64,000 nucleotides of DNA from NCBI RefSeq assembly GCF_000407185.1, contig NZ_KE136482.1:496001-560000 (forward strand). The letters run 5' to 3'. Under the pieces are notes generated by a model, which was not told where the DNA came from, searched no databases, and saw only the letters and a list, made by a program, of their open reading frames with translations. Of the stretch, positions 21,889 through 64,000 are shown in pieces; the stretch's first letter is position 1; each line of letters begins with the position of its first letter. Position numbers and translations under genes: made by a program. This DNA comes from Enterococcus malodoratus ATCC 43197 (lineage in GTDB: Bacteria; Bacillota; Bacilli; Lactobacillales; Enterococcaceae).

Positions 21889-23078
21889 TTTGCTGCCTCC
21901 ATTCGTTCTTTGATTTGCTGAACATCTTTGTCCCCGCGACCGGAAAGATTCATGACGATGATTTGATCCTTGTCCATCGTCGGCGCCACCTTCATAACTT
22001 GCGCTAATGCGTGAGAGCTTTCCAACGCTGGAATAATCCCTTCTAATTGAGAAAGATAATGAAATGCTTCAACCGCCTCATCGTCATCGATCGCCGCATA
22101 TTCTGCCCGACCAATATCATGTAGAAATGAATGTTCTGGACCGATCCCAGGATAATCTAACCCGGCAGAGATCGAGAAAGCCTCTAATACTTGACCATCA
22201 TCATCTTGCAGCAAGTGCATTTTTGCACCATGCAGGACACCTACACTCCCCTTATTGATTGAGGCCGCATGTTCATCGGTATCTAATCCATGACCTGACG
22301 CTTCCACTCCCATTAATCGAACGTCTTCGTCTTCGATAAACGGATAAAACATCCCCATCGCATTGCTTCCGCCGCCGACACAAGCCATTACCAAATCAGG
22401 CAATCGTCCTTCTGCTTCCAGAATTTGTTTACGTGTCTCGATACCGATCACGCTTTGATAGTCTCGAACGATCTCAGGAAATGGATGCGGCCCTAAAACC
22501 GACCCCATCACATAATGGGTGTCCTCCACCGTTGCGACCCAGTAGCGTAAAGCCTCATTCACGGCATCCTTCAAGGTCTTACTGCCGGAAGTCACACTTT
22601 CCACTTTTGCCCCTAAAAGCTCCATTCGAAAGACATTCAGGGCCTGACGCTTCACATCGACCTCACCCATAAAGATTGTACATTCCATTCCGAATAGCGC
22701 AGCCGCGGTGGCCGTTGCCACCCCATGTTGACCCGCGCCAGTTTCAGCGACAACTTTGCGTTTGCCCATCTTTTTGGCTAACAATACTTGTCCTAAAGCA
22801 TTATTAATTTTATGTGCACCAGTGTGGTTCAAGTCCTCGCGCTTCAAATAAATTTTGGCTCCGCCTAAGTCATTGGTCAAACGTTCCGCAAAATAAAGTG
22901 GATTTTCCCGACCTACATATTGCTTCAGATAGTACATCAACTCTTTTTGAAATTCTGGATCTTGCTTCGATTCCTCGTAAGTCGCTTCCAATTCTTGGAT
23001 CGCATACATTAATGTTTCGGGAACAAACTTCCCGCCATATTCCCCGTAGAAACCTTCCTGATTCGGTTCTTGATACAT
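21885..23078 (-). CDS. trpB: Tryptophan synthase beta chain
   Basis: A 397-residue PLP enzyme that joins indole and serine to give tryptophan. [13 protein letters not shown] holds the PLP lysine, [16 protein letters not shown] is the conserved substrate loop and [10 protein letters not shown] the phosphate-binding glycine loop. The start at 23078 ([16 protein letters not shown]) has AAGGAG 7 nt upstream and matches the family N-terminus. The gap to trpF (23079-23173) is the largest inside the operon. Confidence 0.97.
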
Positions 23079-53751: not shown

Positions 53752-54177
53752 TTACCTTACAACTAAGACGTTGCAAGGTGCGTGACTTACAACGTAAGAT
53801 GTAGTAGACCCCACTAGGGCTCTCTCGATTGCTCCTTTACCTGTTGCTCCCATAGCAATTAAATCAATTCCTGTTTCTTTTGCAAACTGTACAATTGAAA
53901 CCTTTGGGGTTCCTTCTACTTTACGAATAGTATAATTAAAGTCTGATGGTAAATGCTGCTCTATTTTCTCAGCAACTATTTTCGATCGTTCCTCTGCCAA
54001 TTCACGCACATACTGAACGATACGTGCATCAGCTGTTGCGATAGACATATCGGTAACTGTTAAGATATACAGATGAGAGTCGTTTCGTCGAGCGATTGAT
54101 AGTGCTTCCTTTAGGGCCTTATACGATTGTTCAGAGTCATCAATAGCAACTAAAATTTTTCCATAATTGTCTTCCAT
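53752..54177 (-). CDS. Universal stress protein UspA family
   Basis: A 141-residue Usp domain with ILVAIDDSEQSYKALKEAL and the ATP motif GATGKGAIERALVGSTTSYVVSHAPCNVLVV, nearly the same end as the other usp of the operon, so they are paralogues. AAAGGAGG precedes the ATG. It lies about 65 nt downstream of a structured RNA that carries the operon's promoter. Confidence 0.9.
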   Translation of the reverse strand: MEDNYGKILVAIDDSEQSYKALKEALSIARRNDSHLYILTVTDMSIATADARIVQYVRELAEERSKIVAEKIEQHLPSDFNYTIRKVEGTPKVSIVQFAKETGIDLIAMGATGKGAIERALVGSTTSYVVSHAPCNVLVVR

Positions 54178-54240
54178 TGTAAACGCCTCCTTTATTTAAT
54201 TATAAGGGAATTTGCTTATTTAAGGAAATGATATACAAGA

Positions 54241-54439
54241 AAAGTCTAGCGAATAGATGGTGTGCACGGTACGCTTGAGGTTCTTATGTCCACTCAACTA
54301 TACACAACTATCCGCTAGACCGTTCGATTAGTAAGGAATCCTTCAAACTCCCACAATCCTTTCGTGCCGACTCTCATCGGCAGGTTCACTATTTGTTTGC
54401 CATTTCTGACAATCTATCGGGAATTCTCTATCCCTTACA
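54241..54439 (-). ncRNA. Structured ~200-nt RNA, probable Lacto-usp (6S-like) RNA
   Basis: A minus-strand segment between a strong promoter (54446-54474) and a long terminal hairpin (54246-54320; GTCTAGCG pairs with CGCTAGAC, extended by ATAG/CTAT and GTGT/ACAC) ending in TTTTC. Inner hairpins include CCGA/TCGG (54368-54381) and AAGGA/TCCTT (54334-54344). It lies in front of a usp operon with an unknown gene, the reported location of the Lacto-usp motif of Lactobacillales, which has been proposed to be their 6S RNA. The identification is from context, length and memory, not from an alignment. Confidence 0.6.
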
Positions 54440-54445
54440 CCTGTT

Positions 54446-54474
54446 TTATACCACATAAAGAAAACGATTACAAA
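54446..54474 (-). promoter_or_regulatory. Promoter of the structured RNA/usp operon with cre-like site
   Basis: TTGTAA (54469-54474), 17-nt spacer, TATAAA (54446-54451) on the minus strand. TGTAATCGTTTTCT (54460-54473) matches the cre consensus except for the last base, suggesting CcpA control of the RNA. Confidence 0.6.
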
Positions 54475-54572
54475 ATATTTGCTCAAAAATACCATGATGA
54501 CAAAATTTAGTTTAGCTTTTGGGATTAGCCGCATTGCTCTACCGCGCTTTACTTACTAATAATAACTGTTAA

Positions 54573-54662
54573 AATAAAAACAAGAGTAGCAGAATTTCCC
54601 CCAGAGCCACTTCCCCAAGTTCTCTGATTCTGCTGCTCTCTTTTTGAGTGATACTTATGCTT
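54573..54662 (-). ncRNA. Small RNA gene 4 of a tandem array
   Basis: Promoter TTGCAA (54692-54697), 17-nt spacer, TAAACT (54669-54674); the transcript starts near 54662. It ends in a 13-bp hairpin with arms at 54583-54595 and 54627-54639, followed by a T-rich tail. The apical part contains two G-rich loops (TTGGGGAAG, CTGGGGGAAA) that could base-pair with C-rich targets. About 90 nt. No open reading frame with an RBS is inside. Confidence 0.55.
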
Positions 54663-54705
54663 GAAAACAGTTTAACGAAACTCTGTATTTTTTGCAAAGA
54701 AAACG

Positions 54706-54775
54706 AAAAAAAGACCGGCTTAATATATGGGTGACAGCCGGTCTTGAAACAAAATGTTAGCAATGATTACTAACA
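54706..54775 (-). ncRNA. Small RNA gene 3 of a tandem array
   Basis: Near-consensus promoter TTGACA (54804-54809), 16-nt spacer, TATAAT (54782-54787). The ~70-nt transcript has a 5' hairpin (TTAG/CTAA) and a perfect 10-bp terminator stem (54711-54720 with 54736-54745) whose loop exposes CACCC, followed by a T run. Confidence 0.6.
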
Positions 54776-54812
54776 AGTTTAATTATATCGTACTAATTTT
54801 TCATGTCAATTC

Positions 54813-54881
54813 AAAAAAATAGACTGACCGAAAGCTAGATCGGCCAGTCAGCATGCATTGATAAAAGGATGCCCCATAAAT
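54813..54881 (-). ncRNA. Small RNA gene 2 of a tandem array
   Basis: Promoter TTGACA (54910-54915), 16-nt spacer, TAAATT (54888-54893). A ~69-nt transcript with an unpaired GGGGCATCC region and a 9-bp terminator stem (54822-54830 with 54841-54849), then eight T. The stem sequence GACTGRCC is shared with gene 1, so these two are paralogous. Confidence 0.6.
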
Positions 54882-54917
54882 ATTATTAATTTACCACTAA
54901 AATGAGATATGTCAACA

Positions 54918-54985
54918 GAAAAATACAGACTGACCAGGAGCAAACCGGTCAGTCCTAACATTGCATCGAGGTGCTACCTTCGATG
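54918..54985 (-). ncRNA. Small RNA gene 1 of a tandem array
   Basis: Promoter TTGATT (55014-55019), 17-nt spacer, TAAAAT (54991-54996). A ~68-nt transcript with a 5' hairpin (CATCGA at 54980-54985 with TCGATG at 54964-54969) and a perfect 8-bp terminator stem (54928-54935 with 54947-54954), followed by TATTTTTC. Confidence 0.6.
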
Positions 54986-55019
54986 TCTTTATTTTACACA
55001 TTACTTTAAAATAAATCAA

Positions 55020-55157
55020 GACACTCTAACAAATGAACGCCCAGCCTGAAAAAGACTGGGTGCCGATCGAGATGTAACTTTGTTATGAAAGAAGAAGTAA
55101 GTTATGGTAACTTACAATTTAACTATAACTCTTTGATTATTAAATTACAATTGTTTT
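55020..55157. other. Intergenic region with two hairpins
   Basis: Holds a stem CCCAG/CTGGG (about 55040-55060) and a perfect palindromic hairpin GTAAGTTA/TAACTTAC (55097-55115), neither with a convincing T run. No reading frame is supported. Confidence 0.35.
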
Positions 55158-55233
55158 TTAATATTTAAACCCCTTAGTGTGCGCCGGATTAATTCCAATA
55201 TCCTTCGCCTTACCCATCTCTTGAATCTCTTTC
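55158..55233 (-). pseudogene. 3' remnant of an interrupted gene
   Basis: On the minus strand an open frame comes out of the IS end and runs 24 codons to TAA at 55158 (KEIQEMGKAKDIGINPAHTKGFKY). It looks like the C-terminus of a real protein but the family cannot be named. It does not resemble the end of a PTS IIB, the gene broken on the other side of the IS. Confidence 0.45.
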
Positions 55234-55293
55234 TGTCAAGGGCCATAATAAAATGTTGGTTTTGGGCCATTGAAATTGTAGGTAGTTTTCTCT

Positions 55294-56055
55294 TTATCGT
55301 TTCGTTTCTTTTCCTTTCGTTTCACTATAACTTTTCATTCGATAGGAAGGTCCTGTAATTTGAATAATTTTAGAATGATGGACCAATCGGTCCAATAAAG
55401 CATTAGTCAATTTCTTATTACCAAAAATTTCGGACCATTGAGACAGAGGAATATTCGTTGTAATAATCGTTGATTTTCTTTCGTATCGCATATTAATTAG
55501 TTGAAACAGTAAGTTAGATCCTTCTTTTGAGAAGGGGAGATACCCGACTTCATCAATAATTAATACAGAATAGCTCGCATATTTTTTGAGCATGGTATCA
55601 CTTGTCCCACGTTTATGTGCCCGGATAAGTCGATTAACCAGTTCTGTACTAGTGATAAATAAACAGCTCTGCCCTCTATCAATACACTCTAAACCAATTG
55701 AAACGGCTAAATGGGTTTTTCCAACACCGCTATTTCCAATGAATAAAAGGTTGTCATACGTGTCTAAAAAGCGTAATGTCACTAAATCTTGAATTTCACT
55801 TTTTTTGATTTTGGGTTGAAAATCAAAGTTAAAATCATGAAGGCGTTTATGATAGGGAAACATTGCCCGTTTTAAAATTTTTCTTTGGGTCTCCTTTCTA
55901 CGATAGCTAATTTCTTGATGTGTTAATTCAAATAAAGAATCAACTAGAGATTGTTCATTTTTAGCTACTTCATCTAAATGGGCAGGTAAAATTTCTTTGA
56001 TACAGGTAAGATTTAAATCTGATAATTGATTTAATAACTGATGGTAATTTGACAT
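55294..56055 (-). CDS. istB: IS21-family helper ATPase IstB
   Basis: A 253-residue AAA+ (DnaC-like) ATPase: Walker A GNSGVGKTHLA, Walker B VLIIDEVGYLPFSKEG, sensor region STIITTNIPLSQWSEIFGNKKLTNALLDRL. It assists the transposase in target selection. The start at 56055 has AGGAGG 5 nt upstream and lies 11 nt past the istA stop. Confidence 0.95.
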   Translation of the reverse strand: MSNYHQLLNQLSDLNLTCIKEILPAHLDEVAKNEQSLVDSLFELTHQEISYRRKETQRKILKRAMFPYHKRLHDFNFDFQPKIKKSEIQDLVTLRFLDTYDNLLFIGNSGVGKTHLAVSIGLECIDRGQSCLFITSTELVNRLIRAHKRGTSDTMLKKYASYSVLIIDEVGYLPFSKEGSNLLFQLINMRYERKSTIITTNIPLSQWSEIFGNKKLTNALLDRLVHHSKIIQITGPSYRMKSYSETKGKETKR

Positions 56056-56065
56056 ATGAGCCTCC

Positions 56066-57292
56066 TTATAATTCATCGTAAGCATCTAAATTTTCTTCTA
56101 CAAAGCGCTCCAACTCTTCGTCTTCTAAGTATTTGAAGACATCAGATCGAAGAATCTCAAGAGAGTCATCACGTTGATAATTTAAGGTTTTTTTGCTTAA
56201 TGGGTGCGAGCGAATACATTGATGGCCATACCAAATGAATAGACTGTCCTTACGGACATCTAAAGTTACCTCTTTACCAATATATTTCACGGGAACAGAA
56301 TACTTTGAGTTTTGATATTGGACCATGGATTCAATGGAAACTTTTCTAATTACGTGTTGGGTTCTAGAAACATATCTGACTAATTCTAAACGATTGAAAG
56401 GACGCAACACCGATTGTTCATCTATAAGAAGCTTAGAGGGATGATTATTCACTGCTTGAGAACGTTCATTATTTAAGTCATTCATAAACTCATAGACGAT
56501 TCGTTTTAGCTCCTGCTCATTTTCAAACTCGTAGTTAAAGACCATTAAGCGGTTAACAGTACGAGCTAAAGCTTCAACTTTGCCTTTGGTTTGTGGACGA
56601 AAAGGGCGACAAGCAATCGGATTGAATCCAGCATCTTTAGCAAATTGACGAAATTTTTCGTTAAAAACGGTTTGACTAAATTGGCTTTTACTTCTATCAA
56701 CAACTGTTTTCATATTGTCAAACCAAATTTCTTGAGGAACACCATTCCCGCAGTACTCAAACGCATTGACCAAACAATTGAAGACATTCGCTTGGGTTCG
56801 ATCAAAGGTTACCTCTAAGTATTTCATGCGAGAATAGCCTAGAATATATAGAAAAAGATTGAAGTAAAAGACTTCACCATGTTTACTCACCATCTTAATA
56901 TTTTCTTTCCAATCGACTTGAGCAGAAAGACCTGGCGTCGTTTCAATTCGAATGGTTGCTTTTTTTACACGCTTTTCTCGATAGTTCCGACAATATCGTT
57001 TGACGGTGGTATAGCCACCTTGATATCCTTTTTTCTTAATAAAATAATAAATTGAAGAAGCGGAACAGCTTAACTCCATTTTATCTTTAATAATTTCTTC
57101 AAAACCGCTTAATAAAAGAGGAGCAGAAGATTGTCTCTTTTTGATCTGTTCTACTTCCCCTTTAGTTCCAGCTTCATAGTAACGCTTGACTGTTCGGTAA
57201 TCACAATTATATTGCTTGGCCATGGCTGCATAGTTAGGTTGAATATCGTTCATAATGTGTCGTAAGACTCCTTCTAAGACATCTTTTCGCAT
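56066..57292 (-). CDS. istA: IS21-family transposase IstA
   Basis: A 408-residue DDE transposase: an N-terminal HTH region (YAAMAKQYNCDYRTVKRYYEAG), then an RNase H fold with TPGLSAQVDWKENI, the second Asp in IWFDNMKTVVD and Glu in RPFRPQTKGKVEALARTVNRLM. It appears full length, so the element may be active. RBS AAGGAG precedes the ATG. Confidence 0.95.
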   Translation of the reverse strand: MRKDVLEGVLRHIMNDIQPNYAAMAKQYNCDYRTVKRYYEAGTKGEVEQIKKRQSSAPLLLSGFEEIIKDKMELSCSASSIYYFIKKKGYQGGYTTVKRYCRNYREKRVKKATIRIETTPGLSAQVDWKENIKMVSKHGEVFYFNLFLYILGYSRMKYLEVTFDRTQANVFNCLVNAFEYCGNGVPQEIWFDNMKTVVDRSKSQFSQTVFNEKFRQFAKDAGFNPIACRPFRPQTKGKVEALARTVNRLMVFNYEFENEQELKRIVYEFMNDLNNERSQAVNNHPSKLLIDEQSVLRPFNRLELVRYVSRTQHVIRKVSIESMVQYQNSKYSVPVKYIGKEVTLDVRKDSLFIWYGHQCIRSHPLSKKTLNYQRDDSLEILRSDVFKYLEDEELERFVEENLDAYDEL

Positions 57293-57395
57293 GAGTCACT
57301 CTCCTTGAATGGTTTCATGAAAAAGAATATCAGATTTTAAATCTAACCTACATTTTCGATGGCCCTTTTCCTACATTTTATTATGGCCCTTGACA

Positions 57396-57529
57396 CCAAT
57401 CGCGCCATTCGTTTCGACCTTGATTCCATAGCCCATTCTTTTAGCAGCCTGCTCAAGTGATTCCGCCGCCATGTACGTATGCGCGATGCCCGCCGCACAT
57501 GCTGTGACAGCAACAATGTTTCTCTCCAT
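57396..57529 (-). pseudogene. 5' fragment of a PTS fructose-type IIB gene, broken by the IS
   Basis: ATG at 57529 opens a frame with the N-terminus of a fructose-specific PTS IIB domain: IVAVTACAAGIAHTYMAAESLEQAAKRMG followed by KVETNGAIG, where the Cys is the phosphorylation site. After ~44 codons it runs into the IS end. A complete IIB needs about 100 residues, so the gene is inactive. Confidence 0.8.
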
Positions 57530-57803
57530 TTTCTTGTACCCCCAGTTATTTATTTTCCATTATGAAGATTAACTTAATAACATCTATAAATAAAGCGTTT
57601 TCGGATTTTTGGGTACTAGTACCAGCTTTTAATGTAATCTTGGGATTAATTTCAGTTTCATCTTTGCTCATATTTAAATGATTATCACGCGGAAAAAGTA
57701 GCACTCCAACTTGTAAGCCACACTAAATAAACTAAGAAAAAGTTACTTTTTCTTAGCTTGCAGCTGGTCACAATTCAATTTGTCTTACACCAAATATTCA
57801 CTT
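57530..57803. other. Intergenic remnant upstream of the broken PTS gene
   Basis: A 41-codon frame on the minus strand (57546-57671) has no RBS and may be a decayed PTS IIA piece, not called as a gene. A perfect hairpin CTAAGAAAAAGT/ACTTTTTCTTAG (57732-57756) lies downstream of the ABC transporter ATPase gene and could terminate it, though its U tract is part of the stem. Confidence 0.4.
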
Positions 57804-58556
57804 TTAAAAGCCATTAATTGTTTCAGGTAAAATTCTTTTTAAAAATTTTCGTGTCCGCTCTTCTTTTGGTTGAGTAAAAAAAGTGTTGGGCGTTCCTTGC
57901 TCTACAATTTGACCTTGATCCATAAAAATTACATGATTGGCGACATCTCGGGCAAAGCTCATTTCATGGGTCACTACTACCATGGTTACCCCTTCTTTTG
58001 CTAATTGCCGCATCACCTCCAGCACCTCTCCTATTAGTTCTGGATCTAACGCCGAAGTGGGTTCATCAATCAAAAGAACTTCCGGTTTGAGTGCGATCGC
58101 CCGCGCGATCCCTATACGCTGCTGCTGTCCGCCAGAAAGTTCATGTGGATAGTACTTTTCAAAAGCACTTAGCCCAACTTTTTCAATGGCAGCTTGAGCG
58201 ATTCGCAACGCTTCCTGTTTAGGAATTTTGCGGGCGATGATCAATCCCTCCAAGACATTTTCTAAAGCGGTTTTATTCGCAAATAGATTGTAGTGTTGAA
58301 AAACAAATGCGGTTTTTTTGCGTATTTGTGTTATTTCTTTCTTCTTGATTTCGGCAAGATCATACTTCTGCTGGTTTATTTCCAGCGTGCCGGAGTCCGC
58401 TTTCTCAAGACCGTTCAAGCAGCGCAAGAAGGTTGTTTTTCCTGAACCGCTGGGACCTAAAATGACTACCACATCGCCTTGATTAACCGCCAAGCTAACG
58501 TTGTTGAGAATCTCCTGCTGATAAAATTGTTTGCAAATATTTTGGACTTTTAGCAT
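57804..58556 (-). CDS. Polar amino acid ABC transporter ATP-binding protein (TcyN/GlnQ-like)
   Basis: A 250-residue ATPase: Walker [28 protein letters not shown], signature [16 protein letters not shown], Walker [20 protein letters not shown]. Members of this family drive amino acid uptake; position after two permeases and a binding protein and next to sulfur genes suggests cystine, cysteine derivatives or methionine-related substrates. It overlaps the upstream permease by 62 nt. GAAAGGAG precedes its ATG inside that gene. Confidence 0.92.
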
Positions 58557-59262
58557 GCTGTTGCTCCTTTCTAGCCGACTGATAATTTAACCGCTTGCTC
58601 AACAGATAAAATAGGCCTTGCACCCCGCCGCAAAGTAGCAAATAGACGACGAATATCACTAAGTAAGATTCAAAATACTGATAACCATGGGCGGCTTGCA
58701 CCTTGGCGATGGCCGTAATATCTTTGATCGTCATGACGAAAACCAACGATGTTCCTTTTACTAAACTTATCGTTAGATTGGATAAATTCGGCAACGCCGC
58801 GACTAAAGCTTGCGGAAATATAATTCGCCGATATGTTTGATAGTTGGTCAACCCAACCGACTGCCCCGCCTCTAACTGCTGCTGGCTTACGGTCGAAAGT
58901 GCGGAACGAAATACCTCTGATAGACTGCCCGTTGTCAACAAGCCAAAAATGATGAAGGCATAGTACAAAGGAGATAAGTTGAAGATATTGATTGAACTAT
59001 TTACGGCGGTTAGCAGTCGATTTAATAAACTGGGTAAGAGACTATAAAAGAACAAGATCAGCAGAATCGGCGGTGTCGCTCGAATAAAAGCCAAATAAAT
59101 AACCGAAAAAGTTGTTACACCTTTTACTTTGTGAATCCGGCCGAGTGCTAGCAAAATTGCTGGGCCGATACTGAGCGCAATGGAGACGACAGCGATCAAT
59201 AGTGTCACTGGAACTCCGCGTAGTGTTAAAAGGAACGTTTCAATAATATAAGTCCAATTCAT
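58495..59262 (-). CDS. Amino acid ABC transporter permease (TcyM-like)
   Basis: A 255-residue permease with five to six TM helices. [17 protein letters not shown] and [41 protein letters not shown] hold the EAA coupling motif of polar amino acid importers. The C-terminal hydrophilic tail overlaps the ATPase gene start by 62 nt. It forms a heterodimer with the next upstream permease. Confidence 0.9.
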
Positions 59263-59964
59263 TTAAGCCGTCTCCTTTCGTTGCGGAACTAAAATCAATT
59301 CTAGTCCCTGTGTCGCGATAGCTAATAACAATGCCATTCCCCAATAGATAAATGCAGCAGCGGAATAGACTTCCAATGAATGATTGCCAAAATTTTGACT
59401 GATCAATAAATTTGCTCCCCCAAGAATATCTACCAAGCCAATCGTATAAGCTAACGCAGCATCCTTCATCAAATTTAATAATGCGGTAGAGAAATTAGGT
59501 AAAGCGATTCGAAAAGCTTGAGGAAGAATAATCCTTCTAAATGTTTGATTTTGACTCAATCCAACACTTAAGCTTGCTTCCGTCTGCCCTTTTGGGACTG
59601 CCAAATAGGCTGAGACAAAAACTTTCGAGATCATAGCCGCAAACAACAGTGTCATAGCGATCACAGTGAATGTTGTCCGCGACCACTCCTCACTTCGGAT
59701 ACCCAACCACCAAAATAAAAATTTGGGCAATCCATAAAAAACAAGAAACAATAAAACGATTGGAGGTGTGCAGCGCAGAATAAAAATATATCCCTCAGCC
59801 CAACGGCGAATCATTCGTTGAGGCGCAAACGTTCCCCAAGAAACAAGAAATCCCAATAGTGTTCCAAAAAGAACCGTCAACCCCATGACTAGTAAAGTTT
59901 TGGGAATGTAGCCAGTTAATTGAGGGATCGTTTGCCAAACTTTTGACCAATCATAACGAACCAT
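59263..59964 (-). CDS. Amino acid ABC transporter permease (TcyL-like)
   Basis: A 233-residue permease with LRCTPPIVLLFLVFYGLP and SAYLAVPKGQTEASLSVGLSQNQTFRRIILPQAF (EAA loop). It is the partner of the permease that follows it with no gap. The arrangement binding protein, two permeases, ATPase resembles the TcyJ/K-L-M-N system of Bacillus subtilis for sulfur compounds. Confidence 0.9.
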   Translation of the reverse strand: MVRYDWSKVWQTIPQLTGYIPKTLLVMGLTVLFGTLLGFLVSWGTFAPQRMIRRWAEGYIFILRCTPPIVLLFLVFYGLPKFLFWWLGIRSEEWSRTTFTVIAMTLLFAAMISKVFVSAYLAVPKGQTEASLSVGLSQNQTFRRIILPQAFRIALPNFSTALLNLMKDAALAYTIGLVDILGGANLLISQNFGNHSLEVYSAAAFIYWGMALLLAIATQGLELILVPQRKETA

Positions 59965-59975
59965 TTAGCTTCCTC

Positions 59976-60827
59976 CTATTCCTGAATAAACTTGAAAACA
60001 TCCTCACCAAAGTATTTTTTGGACAGCTCGATCAAGGTCCCATCACTCTCTAATTCCTTAACAGCTTTGTCATAAGCAACAGAGAATTTTTCATTCTTAT
60101 CATTGCGGTGCAATAGCGGGAAAGTTGGAATGCCCTTATAAGGAACGTAACTTAACTGATCAGCATATTGATGATAAGAGCCTTTCTCGTTTCTAACCGC
60201 CTCCTCAAAAGATAACTTAATGTCAAAATAGGCATCATAGCGTTTTTCTAACACCCAAGCATACGCATCAGAGACATTGAAAGCCTCAGCTGCCTTTAAC
60301 TGGATCGGGTGTTCGGTGTGTTCCTTGTTGTATTCTTCGATCACATTCCATTGTGCATTTTGTGGTGAAATAGGTACTAATTTCCCTCCAAACTTTGCGA
60401 TATCATCAATGCTTTGATATTTTTGTTCGTCCGTCTTACGAACAGTAAACCCAATGATACTAGCTCCGATCTTTTCTTTAGGAATAATGAATTTTTCAGC
60501 ACGCTCTTTTGTGTACCAGGCACCCTTGACGCCAAGATCGTATTTTCCTGATTCTAATCCAATCAACAGATCATCATCGCTGGTCCCGGTAAACTTCAGC
60601 TTATATTGGGGCAGCTTTTTATCGACCGCTTTAAGAACCTGCACCTCAAAACCGTCGGATTCACCCTTATCATTGATATAATCATATGGCACATAATTCT
60701 GAGTGTGAGCAACATTGATTGTTGTAATCTTTTCTTCCGCAATCGCCTTTTTATTACTGCTTCGAATGCCCAATGTCAACGCAATAATCGCAATTGCTGC
60801 AATACCTACTACCAATCCTTTTTTCAT
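59976..60827 (-). CDS. Amino acid ABC transporter substrate-binding protein, N-terminally anchored
   Basis: A 283-residue periplasmic-binding-type protein (SBP_bac_3): NYVPYDYINDKGESDGFEVQVLKAVDKKLP and LIGLESGKYDLGVKGAWYTKERAEKF. The N-terminal hydrophobic helix (residues ~5-21) has no lipobox Cys, unusual for a Gram-positive binding protein, so it is probably held by an uncleaved helix or released. Sulfur-compound specificity is inferred from context. Confidence 0.88.
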   Translation of the reverse strand: MKKGLVVGIAAIAIIALTLGIRSSNKKAIAEEKITTINVAHTQNYVPYDYINDKGESDGFEVQVLKAVDKKLPQYKLKFTGTSDDDLLIGLESGKYDLGVKGAWYTKERAEKFIIPKEKIGASIIGFTVRKTDEQKYQSIDDIAKFGGKLVPISPQNAQWNVIEEYNKEHTEHPIQLKAAEAFNVSDAYAWVLEKRYDAYFDIKLSFEEAVRNEKGSYHQYADQLSYVPYKGIPTFPLLHRNDKNEKFSVAYDKAVKELESDGTLIELSKKYFGEDVFKFIQE

Positions 60828-60845
60828 TATTCATCCTCCATTCTG

Positions 60846-61829
60846 CTATACAAAGCGCTTCGCTGCTTGTCGAACCAACTCAAGATTTCTTAATGGAATA
60901 TCATTGGGAACTGTGCAATCTGCTCCAAGAATAATGCCGGTAGTTCCAGCTTCTTCTAATAACGCGTTAACCGCGGCTTGAATTTTCGTCGGTTTACCGC
61001 GATATAAGAGTCCCTGACTCGAATTTTCAAATCCGCCGATCACTGTTTTATTGAAAAACTTTTGTCCTTCAGCAAGTGAGACGCCTTCTGGTCCAACCGC
61101 CCAATTCACTGCGGCGGCCGGATAATCTTGATACAAATGCAAATCATTTTTTGCTCCTTCATATCCGCAGATATGCAAGATATTTTGACCACCGGCCGCA
61201 TTCGCGGCTTCTAAAACCTTTCGTTCACTCGGTTGAATAAAATCTTGATAAAGCTCTCTGCTTACCCGTTCATCCTGAACATTCTGCACACTTAGGTAGA
61301 TGCCGTCGATTGCCGTTTCTGTCAAAATCCTCGTTACTAAATTCACTAAATCATCCGCAATGATACCAAGAGCTTTTGCCACCAAGTCGGGGGCCTCGGC
61401 CAACAAATCAATAAATTGCTTTTCGCCTCCCGGAAGCTGCCATTTAAGATAAGTAGCTGGCGCAAAAATATTATAGAAAGCCGCAATCTCTTCAACAAAT
61501 TGATTGGTCTGCTGATTTATTAAATCAACCTGTCCTTGATTCCATGAATGTTCTTCCCCAATTGATTGAAATTCCTTAAGGTCTGATACCTCTTCAACCT
61601 GTTGAATTGCTTTATTGGGATAATAGAAATACCCATCACTCATCAACTTCACAAAATCCGGCTGAAATTCCTCAATGAACTTTCGATGTCCAGCGATATT
61701 TTGTTGAATCGTTACTTCGTTCGGAGCCGCCTCCTCTGGCTTTTCCAAAAAGTGAAACCAAAACCCTACAGGTACACGCTCGACCTTTTCTTGATTTAAC
61801 GCTCGCAACACTAACTCTTTTTTTGTCAT
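60846..61829 (-). CDS. UroD-superfamily protein, probable zinc-dependent thiol methyltransferase
   Basis: A 327-residue TIM-barrel protein annotated by family as uroporphyrinogen decarboxylase-like. It carries the MtaA/CmuA-type zinc ligands, HICG (His-x-Cys) and a distal GADCTVP Cys, that activate a thiol in methyltransferases; true UroD lacks these. It is the first structural gene behind a Met/Cys-rich leader peptide and is followed by an amino acid importer. Homocysteine or a related thiol as methyl acceptor is a reasonable inference. The start at 61829 follows AAGGAG by 8 nt. Confidence 0.78.
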   Translation of the reverse strand: MTKKELVLRALNQEKVERVPVGFWFHFLEKPEEAAPNEVTIQQNIAGHRKFIEEFQPDFVKLMSDGYFYYPNKAIQQVEEVSDLKEFQSIGEEHSWNQGQVDLINQQTNQFVEEIAAFYNIFAPATYLKWQLPGGEKQFIDLLAEAPDLVAKALGIIADDLVNLVTRILTETAIDGIYLSVQNVQDERVSRELYQDFIQPSERKVLEAANAAGGQNILHICGYEGAKNDLHLYQDYPAAAVNWAVGPEGVSLAEGQKFFNKTVIGGFENSSQGLLYRGKPTKIQAAVNALLEEAGTTGIILGADCTVPNDIPLRNLELVRQAAKRFV

Positions 61830-61856
61830 AAAAACACTCCTTATCTCTTTTAGGTA

Positions 61857-61976
61857 AACAAAAAGGACCTGAAAAATTTTCAAGTCCTTTGGTCATCATT
61901 AAATTTCGCCATACGCTAATGCCGCCATTTAAAGGTATGCCAAAGAACATGATGGGCATAGACACATCATGTTTGG
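61857..61976 (-). promoter_or_regulatory. Ribosome-mediated attenuator with Met/Cys leader peptide
   Basis: Four pairing segments are visible on the minus-strand RNA. Segment 1 (61968-61976) lies in leader codons 13-15. Segment 2 (61940-61951) covers codons 21-24. Segment 3 (61881-61892) includes the 5' arm of the terminator. Segment 4 is the 3' arm (61862-61875). 2:3 pairs at 11 of 12 positions; 3:4 forms an uninterrupted 14-pair stem (one G-U) followed by T. 1:2 pairs as CCAAA/TTTGG plus CATG/CATG. Stalling at Met or Cys codons would cover segment 1 and allow 2:3 antitermination. Confidence 0.75.
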
Positions 61977-62012
61977 CATCATCATTTTGTTTGTTCGTCT
62001 TGTGTCCTTCAT
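61929..62012 (-). CDS. Met/Cys-rich leader peptide (27 aa)
   Basis: ATG at 62010-62012 is preceded by AAAGGAG with 9-nt spacing, and TAA is at 61929-61931. Met codons are at positions 1, 10, 11, 12, 15, 16 and Cys codons at 17, 19 and 22 (core MMMPNMMCLCPSC). Such clustering of two rare codons is not expected by chance in 27 codons. It precedes a terminator and the UroD-like gene. It is best explained as a regulatory peptide whose translation senses charged tRNA-Met and tRNA-Cys. Confidence 0.82.
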   Translation of the reverse strand: MKDTRRTNKMMMPNMMCLCPSCSLAYL

Positions 62013-62055
62013 GATTGCTCGCTCCTTTCAGAATTGTTCTATCTCTAGTAAATCA

Positions 62056-62084
62056 ACTATACCAGCTGCTAACTTGCTTGCCTA
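62056..62084 (-). promoter_or_regulatory. Promoter of the leader peptide/UroD/ABC operon
   Basis: TAGGCA (62079-62084), 17-nt spacer, TATAGT (62056-62061) on the minus strand. The weak -35 box leaves room for activation by the LysR regulator encoded just upstream. No defined LysR box was identified. Confidence 0.5.
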
Positions 62085-62128
62085 ATTGAGATTTTTTATG
62101 ACTATTCATTGCTTTTTATTATGATGCA

Positions 62129-63025
62129 TCACTTCTCTTGCAATGTTTTCTTTAGTTCCGTTAGAAAATAAGTGCCAAGCTCAGTTGGTTTGCGCATCCG
62201 GTTGCTTATCACTACCAAAGAGTGCTGGTCCGCATCCTCCAACGGACGCAAAACGATCTGATCTTTGGTTAATCCTTTGATTATTCCAAGACCAGAGGCA
62301 TAAGCATCTGAAGCGGCCAATAAATTCATTAAGGTGCCTCGATCATTTGTATAATAGTTCGAGCGCTCCTTGGATATACCGATGGGGTCTTCGTTCAGGT
62401 AGGCTGATCCGTGATCTTCTTGAATAAATCGAACCTGCGGATATGCCGACAGATCGTCTTTTGTTATTACCTCTTTAGCCGCAAGTGGATGATGAGCGCC
62501 CAAATATATATGCGTTGAAAAATTACCTAGAACCTCAAAGTTCAGACTTTCTTGATTGAAATAGCGTTCCAGCATTCGTTTACTTTGCTGATTAAGATAG
62601 ATGATCCCCAATTCGCTTTCAAAATCGCGGATACTTTCAAGAATTCGTTTGGTGGTTGTTTCATTCAAATAGAAATTTTGGCAAACTGACTGAAATTTTT
62701 CTGCGACCTTCATAAACGGTTCATAGAGAAAATCATAATGCTGGCAACTCACCGTAAAACTCTGCTTAGTTCCCAACAAAAAATGCTTTTCCATTTCTTC
62801 AACCTGGGCTAAAATTCGTTTAGCGTAGGTCAAGAAATCACTGCCAGCTTCTGTCAGGCACGCACCTGATTTTGACCTATGAAACAATTGTACGTCCAAC
62901 TCGTTTTCCAGCTCCTTGATGGAACTGGAAAGACTGGGTTGAGTCACAAATAATTCTTTCGCCGCCTGACTGAAGCTTCCAACCGTAGCGATCGTTTGGA
63001 CATAGCGATATTGCTGTAAGTTCAT
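62129..63025 (-). CDS. LysR family regulator, probably of sulfur amino acid genes
   Basis: A 298-residue LysR protein: HTH at residues 2-60 (FSQAAKELFVTQPSLSSSIKELENELDVQLFHR) and a two-lobed effector domain. It resembles CmbR/CysR/MtaR regulators of lactic acid bacteria and lies between a cystathionine enzyme gene and the leader-peptide operon, so both are likely targets. The start at 63025 (MNLQQYRYVQ) has GGAGAGG upstream; a GTG six bases earlier is less likely. Confidence 0.88.
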   Translation of the reverse strand: MNLQQYRYVQTIATVGSFSQAAKELFVTQPSLSSSIKELENELDVQLFHRSKSGACLTEAGSDFLTYAKRILAQVEEMEKHFLLGTKQSFTVSCQHYDFLYEPFMKVAEKFQSVCQNFYLNETTTKRILESIRDFESELGIIYLNQQSKRMLERYFNQESLNFEVLGNFSTHIYLGAHHPLAAKEVITKDDLSAYPQVRFIQEDHGSAYLNEDPIGISKERSNYYTNDRGTLMNLLAASDAYASGLGIIKGLTKDQIVLRPLEDADQHSLVVISNRMRKPTELGTYFLTELKKTLQEK

Positions 63026-63049
63026 GTTCACCTCTCCTGTCTCACGTTT

Positions 63050-64000
63050 TTACTCTTCAAAAGCGCCAAAGCCTTGAGCCAGATCCCTCAACAAATCTTG
63101 ACTATCTTCTATACCAATCGAAAGACGTAATAAATTATCTGTTAGCCCATAGGATTCTCGCAGGTCTTTCGGAATATCAGCATGGGTTTGAGTAGTCGGA
63201 TAAGTGATCAATGTCTCCACTCCGCCCAAACTTTCGGCAAACGTGATCAAATTCAAATTTGCTAAAAAGTGATTGATTTTACTCGCGTCTCTGACATAGA
63301 AGCTGATCATTCCGCCGATGCCGGGATACAATACTTTTTCGATCTGCGGAAAATCTTTTAAGGCTTTGGCGATTTCCTGCGCATTGCGTTCCTGTTGTTC
63401 AAAGCGGATTTTCAAGGTTTTTAAACTGCGAATGAATAACCAACTGTCAAAACTTGATAACGTTGGTCCGGTCGTATTGCTCAACCAAGCCAATCTTTCT
63501 CCTACATCCGACTCCTTCGCAACGACGACCCCCGCCAGCAAATCGTTGTGTCCGCTTAAAAATTTCGTGCCAGAATGAACGACGATATCAGCACCTTCTT
63601 TAAGCGGCTGCTGTCTTAACGGAGTAGAAAATGTATTGTCTACGATCAGACAAGCTTGGTACTTATGAGCTAGTTTGGCCGTATCAGCGATCGAAACTTC
63701 TTGCATTAAAGGATTCGTCGGTGTTTCCAAAAATACGGCGTCGATTTTTTTAGTTAGTTGACTCTCTAAGCTGTCAAAATCATCGAAATAATGAAACACG
63801 GAAGAATTCTGCCGTTCCAGCTCTTTGAAATAGCGATAACTGCCGCCGTAAAGATCACGAGAAACTAAAAATTCACTTTTCGCCGGAAACAAATTGAAAA
63901 CTAATTGGATCGCACTCATACCGGAGCTTGTCACGATTCCCTGACTTCCTGCTTCTAACTTCGCCAAGGCCCCCTCCAAAATATCTCTGGTGGGATTTTT
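63050..64000 (-). CDS. Cys/Met metabolism PLP enzyme (cystathionine gamma-synthase/beta-lyase), 5' end cut by window
   Basis: The visible ~316 residues belong to the trans-sulfuration PLP family: NPTRDILEGALAKLE, SSGMSAIQLVFNL, RDLYGGSYRYF, ETPTNPLMQ, VDNTFSTP and the PLP lysine in HSGTKFLSGHND. LRLSIGIEDSQDLLRDL is the usual C-terminus. It may make or cleave cystathionine; gamma-synthase and beta-lyase cannot be separated safely by eye. The frame is open at base 64000. LysR follows 24 nt downstream, so both are probably one transcript. Confidence 0.92.
   Translation of the reverse strand, partial: KNPTRDILEGALAKLEAGSQGIVTSSGMSAIQLVFNLFPAKSEFLVSRDLYGGSYRYFKELERQNSSVFHYFDDFDSLESQLTKKIDAVFLETPTNPLMQEVSIADTAKLAHKYQACLIVDNTFSTPLRQQPLKEGADIVVHSGTKFLSGHNDLLAGVVVAKESDVGERLAWLSNTTGPTLSSFDSWLFIRSLKTLKIRFEQQERNAQEIAKALKDFPQIEKVLYPGIGGMISFYVRDASKINHFLANLNLITFAESLGGVETLITYPTTQTHADIPKDLRESYGLTDNLLRLSIGIEDSQDLLRDLAQGFGAFEE

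Follow-up and report, generated by a model that had tools for sequence, protein, structure and literature searches.

How is the operon for a UroD-like methyltransferase and an ABC importer controlled in a 64,000-nucleotide stretch of Enterococcus DNA (the window; 64 kb of contig C2 from a genome of 4.62 Mb), where it is preceded by a short open reading frame rich in Met and Cys codons? The excerpt of PMC6004538 places the sulfur amino acid genes of Firmicutes under S-box or T-box RNAs or LysR proteins, and the first-pass annotation of the window had proposed for this operon ribosome-mediated attenuation of the trp type.

A Met/Cys-rich leader gene in a sulfur gene cluster

The elements of the locus discussed below are:

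62129..63031, minus strand: LysR-type regulator gene (profile match), a probable co-regulator; its relatives are leader-preceded in G013, G004, G019, G290 and G095
62084..62105, minus strand: upstream box ATAGTCATAAAAAATCTCAATT, a putative and possible LysR-type operator, similar by eye in the window, L010 and L003
62056..62061, minus strand: -10-like hexamer TATAGT (by eye), likely the leader promoter
62022..62028, minus strand: ribosome-binding site AAAGGAG, 9 nt 5' of the leader ATG; a G-rich site precedes the ATG in 12/12 leaders
61929..62012, minus strand: Met/Cys-rich leader peptide gene of 27 codons (open reading frame and translation), product MKDTRRTNKMMMPNMMCLCPSCSLAYL
61965..61979, minus strand: segment 1, 5' arm of hairpin 1:2 (folding, alignment)
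61956..61964, minus strand: putative control codons Cys17-Leu18-Cys19 (TGT CTA TGC), from ribosome-position folding and from Cys largely kept with silent third-base changes
61937..61954, minus strand: segment 2, 3' arm of 1:2, its part 61952-61940 being the antiterminator 5' arm (folding; DNA kept in L071, L086 and L068 despite another frame)
61880..61892, minus strand: segment 3, antiterminator 3' arm, overlapping the terminator 5' arm 61890-61878 (folding, alignment)
61862..61890, minus strand: intrinsic terminator 3:4 of 13 pairs (folding), T run 61864-61860 (T5)
60846..61829, minus strand: UroD-like methyltransferase gene, the first past the terminator (Pfam URO-D, 1.8e-17)
57804..60827, minus strand: ABC importer, with family-3 binding protein 59976-60827, permeases 59263-59964 and 58495-59262, and ATPase 57804-58556

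The leader reading frame extends from the ATG at 62012 to the TAA at 61931-61929 and contains six Met codons, five of them internal (codons 10, 11, 12, 15 and 16), and three Cys codons (17, 19 and 22); the earlier description of a 27-codon gene with these counts and a good ribosome-binding site was thus accurate. With residue frequencies taken from the long reading frames of the window, the chance of at least eight Met plus Cys among the 26 internal codons, calculated post hoc, is P = 5e-7. Two of the 191 short reading frames of the window that have a ribosome-binding-site-like motif reach eight Met plus Cys, the leader and a frame at 22240, which by eye is an out-of-frame reading of trpB. A looser scan for a Cys/Met-rich short frame followed by a terminator returned four matches in the window, the leader among them, and the scan alone therefore has a background. 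The hexamer TATAGT, TATGGT or TATGCT was found by eye 5' of the ATG in all 12 leaders that we identified. Since such a hexamer stands before each leader and the upstream box is common to the closest three, the leader probably has its own promoter, which is perhaps LysR-controlled.

The methyltransferase and the importer named in the first-pass annotation were both found, as a URO-D family protein and as a family-3 binding protein, two permeases and an ATPase. The order on the minus strand is metE, metF, a T-box, a patB-type lyase gene, cystathionine gamma-synthase, LysR, leader, UroD, binding protein, two permeases and ATPase (metE, metF and patB were named by eye, and everything from metE to the synthase start lies outside the window). 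The T-box that precedes the patB-type lyase gene, likewise outside the window, scores 93.4 bits against an Rfam cut-off of 93 and has a Met specifier as read by eye; a T-box and a leader peptide thus occur within one sulfur gene cluster. T-boxes with scores just over the Rfam cut-off lie before the patB-type lyase gene at L057:4396-4621 and L061:1088-1310. NCBIfam methyltransferase models match the UroD-like protein below their cut-offs, and the best models for the importer mostly describe transporters of cystine or of other polar amino acids, those shown being below cut-off with the exception of the permease domain model TIGR01726, which matches the first permease above it. The motif H219-x-C221...C305, which corresponds to the zinc site known from thiol methyltransferases in this superfamily, is invariant in 16/16 aligned UroD-like proteins (that of the window and those of 15 of 31 loci). 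At window positions 56066-57292 (minus strand), an IstA-like transposase frame lies beside a short phosphotransferase-fragment-like frame at 57371-57529 (by eye).

Mutually exclusive RNA pairings

The leader reading frame overlaps three mutually exclusive pairings, 1:2, 2:3 and the terminator 3:4. All three had been proposed from the first reading of the sequence, and their extents needed revision. Hairpin 1:2 is larger than described, with 15 pairs over 61979-61937 (61979-61965 with 61954-61947 and 61943-61937). In the antiterminator, 11 of 12 positions pair as claimed and one more pair, to 61952/61880, is added, so that 2:3 joins 61952-61940 to 61892-61880 by 12 pairs with one U/U mismatch at -15.3 kcal/mol; 0/500 shuffles of segment 3 are equally good. 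The terminator is a hairpin with a T tail, but of 13 pairs (61890-61878 with 61874-61862) instead of 14. The 194-nt leader as a whole folds at -47.5 kcal/mol (z = -2.8; 5/200 shuffles fold as well), its minimum-energy structure containing 1:2 and 3:4. There was no Rfam match in window positions 54000-64000 at E up to 1, and a T-box, S-box or other Rfam riboswitch at the leader was ruled out by the lack of any covariance-model match.

Leaders in related genomes

Leaders were collected by DNA similarity in 60 relatives, with model R1 in 105 genomes of the window's own family (taken as Enterococcaceae), with model R2 in 20 genus genomes and 395 order genomes, and by reading 30 LysR loci. Together with that of the window, 12 such leaders were found in 9 genomes of two families. 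R1 matched 11/105 family genomes (E up to 0.1) and R2 18/395 order genomes (E up to 0.05), where G290 was the sole distant true match of R2 (E 0.002); apart from the leaders described here, the matches of both models were weak (E 1.8e-4 or more) and were set aside. The LysR search matched 187/395 genomes, and four of the 30 loci read have a leader (window, G006, G290 and G095), that of G095 having been missed by R2 and found by reading around LysR genes. Among the 30 loci, L098, L106 and L110 have just Cys-containing TTG-start frames without the core. Six of the weak model matches (L065, L070, L073, L075, L076 and L081) have frames with at least five Met plus Cys, but none of these frames passed the scan for a Cys/Met-rich frame plus terminator.

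The leaders stand before three kinds of target: the UroD-like methyltransferase and ABC importer genes, a cystathionine lyase/cysK-like operon and the neighbouring LysR gene. In the window and in the same-genus genome G002 the order is LysR, leader, UroD-ABC; in G013, G004 and G019 it is leader 1, LysR, leader 2, UroD-ABC; and in G076, of another genus, it is leader, UroD-ABC. G290, which belongs to another family, and G095, which belongs to another genus, have a leader followed by LysR. In G006, LysR and the leader are followed by cystathionine lyase-like, cysK-like, glutathione-transferase-like and acetyltransferase-like genes and an ABC importer, where cysK was named from the annotation of matches and the others by similarity and eye; a plasmid search with CysK gave 40 records, which were used for their cysK annotation alone. 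The methyltransferase occurs in 6/105 family genomes (E up to 1e-40) and is preceded by a leader in 6/6. The distance from the T run to its start codon is 21-115 nt in five genomes and 448 nt in G076, a gap inside which no same-strand reading frame of more than 42 residues ends. In L054 of G094, positions 1501-1544 hold a weak near copy of the hairpin core by the contig end, with NMTCMSC in one frame; no start could be recognised for this palindrome, which may represent a leader that has decayed or diverged.

Conservation of codons and of RNA

Loss of the start codon or of the Met/Cys codons in relatives had been named as a test of the proposal. The outcome favours the proposal: in each of the 12 leaders the ATG, its ribosome-binding site and the three pairings are kept, and the control zone contains 1-3 Cys and 2-5 Met codons. 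No leader has fewer than two Cys codons in total, and both TGT and TGC are in use. The codon between the two conserved Cys varies (CTA, CGA, CTT, CCA, CAA, ATG). One leader has Tyr at the second Cys (L006; leader 1 of G004), L086 has its Cys codons elsewhere within the same control zone, and the third Cys (codon 22) is absent in 3/12. The peptides of the nearest relatives have MMCxCxSCSL(A/V) in common. The 3' arm is CATCATGTTCTTTGG, or GCCGTGTTCTTTAG in the leader-2 group, and this DNA is kept though the frame differs (HHVLW in L071 and L086, RVL-stop in L068); the 3' arm is thus constrained as RNA, and the 5' part, as judged from the sequences compared, is constrained as Met/Cys codons. Leader 1 of G004 has no stop codon nearby, and at L059:4800-5939 it stays open across the terminator and on into the LysR gene, for 379 residues in all.

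Over the 12 leaders, pairing energies are -11.1 to -24.5 kcal/mol for 1:2, -11.1 to -19.2 kcal/mol for 2:3 (at most 4/500 shuffles as good) and -14.5 to -26.5 kcal/mol for the terminators. The whole of 1:2 is paired in 81.8% of alignment cells against 28-49% when slid, the inner helix being 97.7% paired and the outer helix just 60.6%, and 2:3 is paired in 94.4% of cells against 30-61% in slid registers. The proposed check for covariation was run on pairings 1:2 and 2:3. In L055, L056 and L068 both arms of 1:2 are changed together, ATGATG/CATCAT to ATGGC/GCCGT, which affects two inner-helix pairs, but covariation in 2:3 is not above shuffles across the 12 leaders because this helix hardly varies; one of its pairs changes from G-C to A-U. 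The paired changes in 1:2 and 2:3 represent few independent events.

A predicted attenuation switch

We consider it likely, from the sequences compared, that the leader is a ribosome-mediated transcription attenuator of the trp type. A short reading frame with ATG and ribosome-binding site, predicted to be translated, is present in 12/12 cases, together with the exclusive pairings 1:2 and 2:3 and an intrinsic terminator 3:4. Cys codons at which a stall would free segment 2 are present in 12/12, the pathway of the methyltransferase operon being suggested by its neighbouring genes, and in 11/12 the stop codon is placed where a finishing ribosome would mask segment 2. The attenuation logic of the earlier proposal thus finds support in 12 leaders from 9 genomes.

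In the predicted switch, RNA polymerase would start at the leader's own promoter and a ribosome would translate the 27 codons. With charged tRNA-Cys plentiful (possibly also elongator tRNA-Met), it would reach the stop codon and cover segment 2, the terminator 3:4 would form and the methyltransferase/ABC operon would be off. With charged tRNA-Cys scarce, it would stall around codons 16-19 and cover segment 1, leaving segment 2 free to pair in 2:3 before segment 4 is made, and RNA polymerase would read through. As in classical attenuators, the default state would be set by 1:2 forming first and by when segment 4 appears. Stalled ribosomes would in this way probably switch the operon on at cysteine shortage, perhaps also at that of methionine. 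The leader gives this poorly understood operon a likely physiological signal and therefore a handle on its substrate.

To model the effect of ribosome position, the RNA was masked as far as 13 nt beyond the first A-site base, and what remained up to segment 3 was folded. With the A-site at the first conserved Cys (Cys14 was taken for L086), the probability of 2:3 is 0.99-1.00 in 11/12 leaders and 0.84 in L068. The value is 0.15-0.66 at the next Cys, present in 11 leaders, 0 at the third Cys (9/12 leaders) and 0 at the stop codon in 11/12, leader 1 of G004 having no stop there. The useful stalls thus end at about the second Cys, and in this model codon 22 is probably not a control codon, since a stall there favours termination and the codon is lost in 3/12. 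The antiterminator 2:3 is also fairly free when the ribosome stalls ahead of the Met/Cys codons (0.64-0.90 at window codons 7-10), and the folding model does not single out the Met/Cys codons. At equilibrium without a ribosome, 2:3 exceeds 0.5 in 10/12 leaders when the transcript is cut off at segment 3 (0.10-1.00; window 0.99). For full-length RNA the terminator is favoured with a stalled ribosome (0.55-0.97) and over all states (0.55-0.99), with the exception of L071, where 2:3 is about equal. Equilibrium energies alone therefore do not set the default, and the switch would need kinetic control.

Identity of the signal and alternative explanations

The first-pass annotation had suggested that the leader reads both Met and Cys. 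Cys is the constant element and, to judge from the sequences, the main signal, as it is the element common to all leader types, and Met is a possible one. Joint sensing is less well supported than the attenuation logic: Met in the control zone varies from two to five and ATGATG is demanded by stem 1:2, so that Met is partly imposed by the stem. The converse, that Met is the main signal through charged elongator tRNA-Met and Cys is incidental, would fit the metE-metF-patB-cystathionine gamma-synthase neighbourhood, a methionine cluster (names by eye; profile match for the synthase), as well as the five internal Met of the window leader, the at least two control-zone Met in 12/12 and the four internal Met of a Phascolarctobacterium leader described below. 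However, L004, L006 and L068 retain Cys with no more than two control-zone Met, ATGATG belongs to stem 1:2, internal Met are few in L011 (seven Cys) and in the lactobacillus cysK leaders (CCC, CCSC), and patB is already preceded by a T-box; we regard Met as the main signal as improbable.

Two further explanations dispense with tRNA charging or with the peptide. The conservation of MMCxCxSCSL(A/V) in the nearest relatives could point to an arrest peptide whose nascent MMCxCxSCSL senses a small molecule or the redox state in the tunnel, but L071, L086 and L068 are out of frame or cut short after the second Cys with the DNA kept, and the N-terminal half is not conserved, which makes an arrest peptide a more improbable explanation still. 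An element acting as RNA only, with a protein- or ligand-bound hairpin and a terminator and with the short frame untranslated or without a role, would agree with the hairpin being the most conserved part, and 1:2 could be a binding site. Against it stand the ATG and ribosome-binding site in 12/12, the retention of the loop Cys codons through silent changes despite variation in the codon that separates them, and Rfam without a match at E up to 1, and it is to us the least probable of the alternatives to attenuation at Cys codons.

Comparison with known systems

Leader-peptide attenuators of the trp, his, leu and thr type are known from Proteobacteria. The present leader shares with them a short reading frame with regulatory codons, the 1:2/2:3/3:4 logic and a terminator with a U-tract, and differs from them in its Cys/Met codons, its occurrence in Lactobacillales, the sulfur-related operon and several leader sites beside a LysR gene. 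The excerpt of PMC2965389 (2010), which discusses these attenuators, states that none had been shown outside Proteobacteria and Actinobacteria before the hisS case of bacilli, except the atypical ermC. The histidine leader before hisS/hisZ in bacilli, as described in that excerpt, is likewise a codon-reading leader peptide in Firmicutes, there with histidine and aminoacyl-tRNA synthetase genes.

Upstream short frames whose Cys codons control sulfur genes are described, in excerpts, for the mycobacterial polycysteine leaderless frames (Canestrari 2020, via PMC13236596 and PMC9031893) and for the cys leaders of Actinobacteria, where no conserved terminator hairpin was found (PMC1262725). The mycobacterial frames have a leaderless start and a contiguous Cys run, whereas here there are a ribosome-binding site and spaced C-x-C codons, which rules out membership in that class. 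Predicted attenuation at Cys codons with a terminator is also described, in the excerpt of PMC8632094, for uORFC-8-2 before cysS in Rhodobacterales, a likeness by description only; its tandem Cys are usually at 14-15, its target is cysS and its hosts are alpha-proteobacteria. Codon-reading Cys leaders have so far been described in Actinobacteria and predicted in alpha-proteobacteria, and the open-access papers listed by our searches included no Cys or Met leader peptide for Firmicutes, though one may be in print elsewhere. The mechanism is of a known kind; as far as we have seen, what is new is the amino acids that it would read, the phylum and the gene setting.

Cys-rich leaders outside the Enterococcus family

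Three of the 30 UroD loci from outside the enterococci have, immediately before the gene, a short frame that is rich in Cys and carries a ribosome-binding-site motif, followed by a terminator. At L011:5803, from Youngiibacter fragilis, the leader before the UroD-like gene has seven Cys, and at L014:5807 and L015:2943, from two Phascolarctobacterium MAGs, the same peptide occurs with five Cys and four internal Met. No preceding short frame with at least two Cys and such a motif was found in 23/30, and of the 7/30 that have one only these three have a terminator behind it. Rfam gave no T-box or S-box at the other methyltransferase loci (gathering thresholds). Of 30 cysK loci scanned for Cys-rich leaders, 27 gave no match; the frames at L116 and L117 were judged chance look-alikes, and the third match is the known G006 leader. 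Over all loci (816 kb, overlapping loci counted repeatedly) the scan gave 57 matches, of which 42 are Enterococcus-family leaders (many repeats). From the other 15, judged by position and eye, five were counted as leaders (L011, L014, L015, L143 and L144 on the plus strand) and ten as chance (L017 twice, L020, L039 twice, L072, L080, L116, L117 and L144 on the minus strand).

The excerpt of PMC6004538 describes the L. paracasei operon cysK2-ctl1-cysE2, which has a premature terminator and is induced without cysteine by a mechanism "yet to be discovered". The lactobacillus terminator motif quoted there matched 2/201 genomes of family f9, taken to be Lactobacillaceae, and in both a Cys-cluster leader lies ahead of the terminator, which is followed by a cysK- plus cystathionine-synthase/lyase-like operon. 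A pattern built from leaders of this type matched 16/201 f9 genomes, eight of which carry the leader; all are of g98, an apparent lactobacillus genus, where they make up 8/8 genomes searched (L149-L153, L155, L156 and L161; also L143 and L144). The other eight matching genomes have no leader, and a backward control pattern matched about as many genomes; matches outside g98 are therefore chance. The g98 leaders have CCC or CCSC ahead of (R/L)I(P/S)R, with a terminator and the same operon type. They differ from the Enterococcus family in sequence, with no likeness by eye, and in structure, and the two are probably independent. As g98 genomes with the quoted terminator motif or one like it carry a Cys-cluster leader at that place, these leaders are a candidate answer to the control of cysK2-ctl1-cysE2, and they make this question experimentally simple through their codons.

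Taken jointly, and tentatively, with slightly less than an even chance of being right, these cases may mean that Cys leader attenuation arose several times in Firmicutes sulfur operons, as an Enterococcaceae-centred Cys+Met family, an unrelated lactobacillus CCC/CCSC family and the Phascolarctobacterium/Youngiibacter leaders. If so, the Enterococcaceae-centred leaders would be an OR gate on two interconvertible sulfur amino acids, standing before both the operon and its LysR gene, and the CCC/CCSC leaders would explain the terminator control of cysK2-ctl1-cysE2 in L. paracasei.
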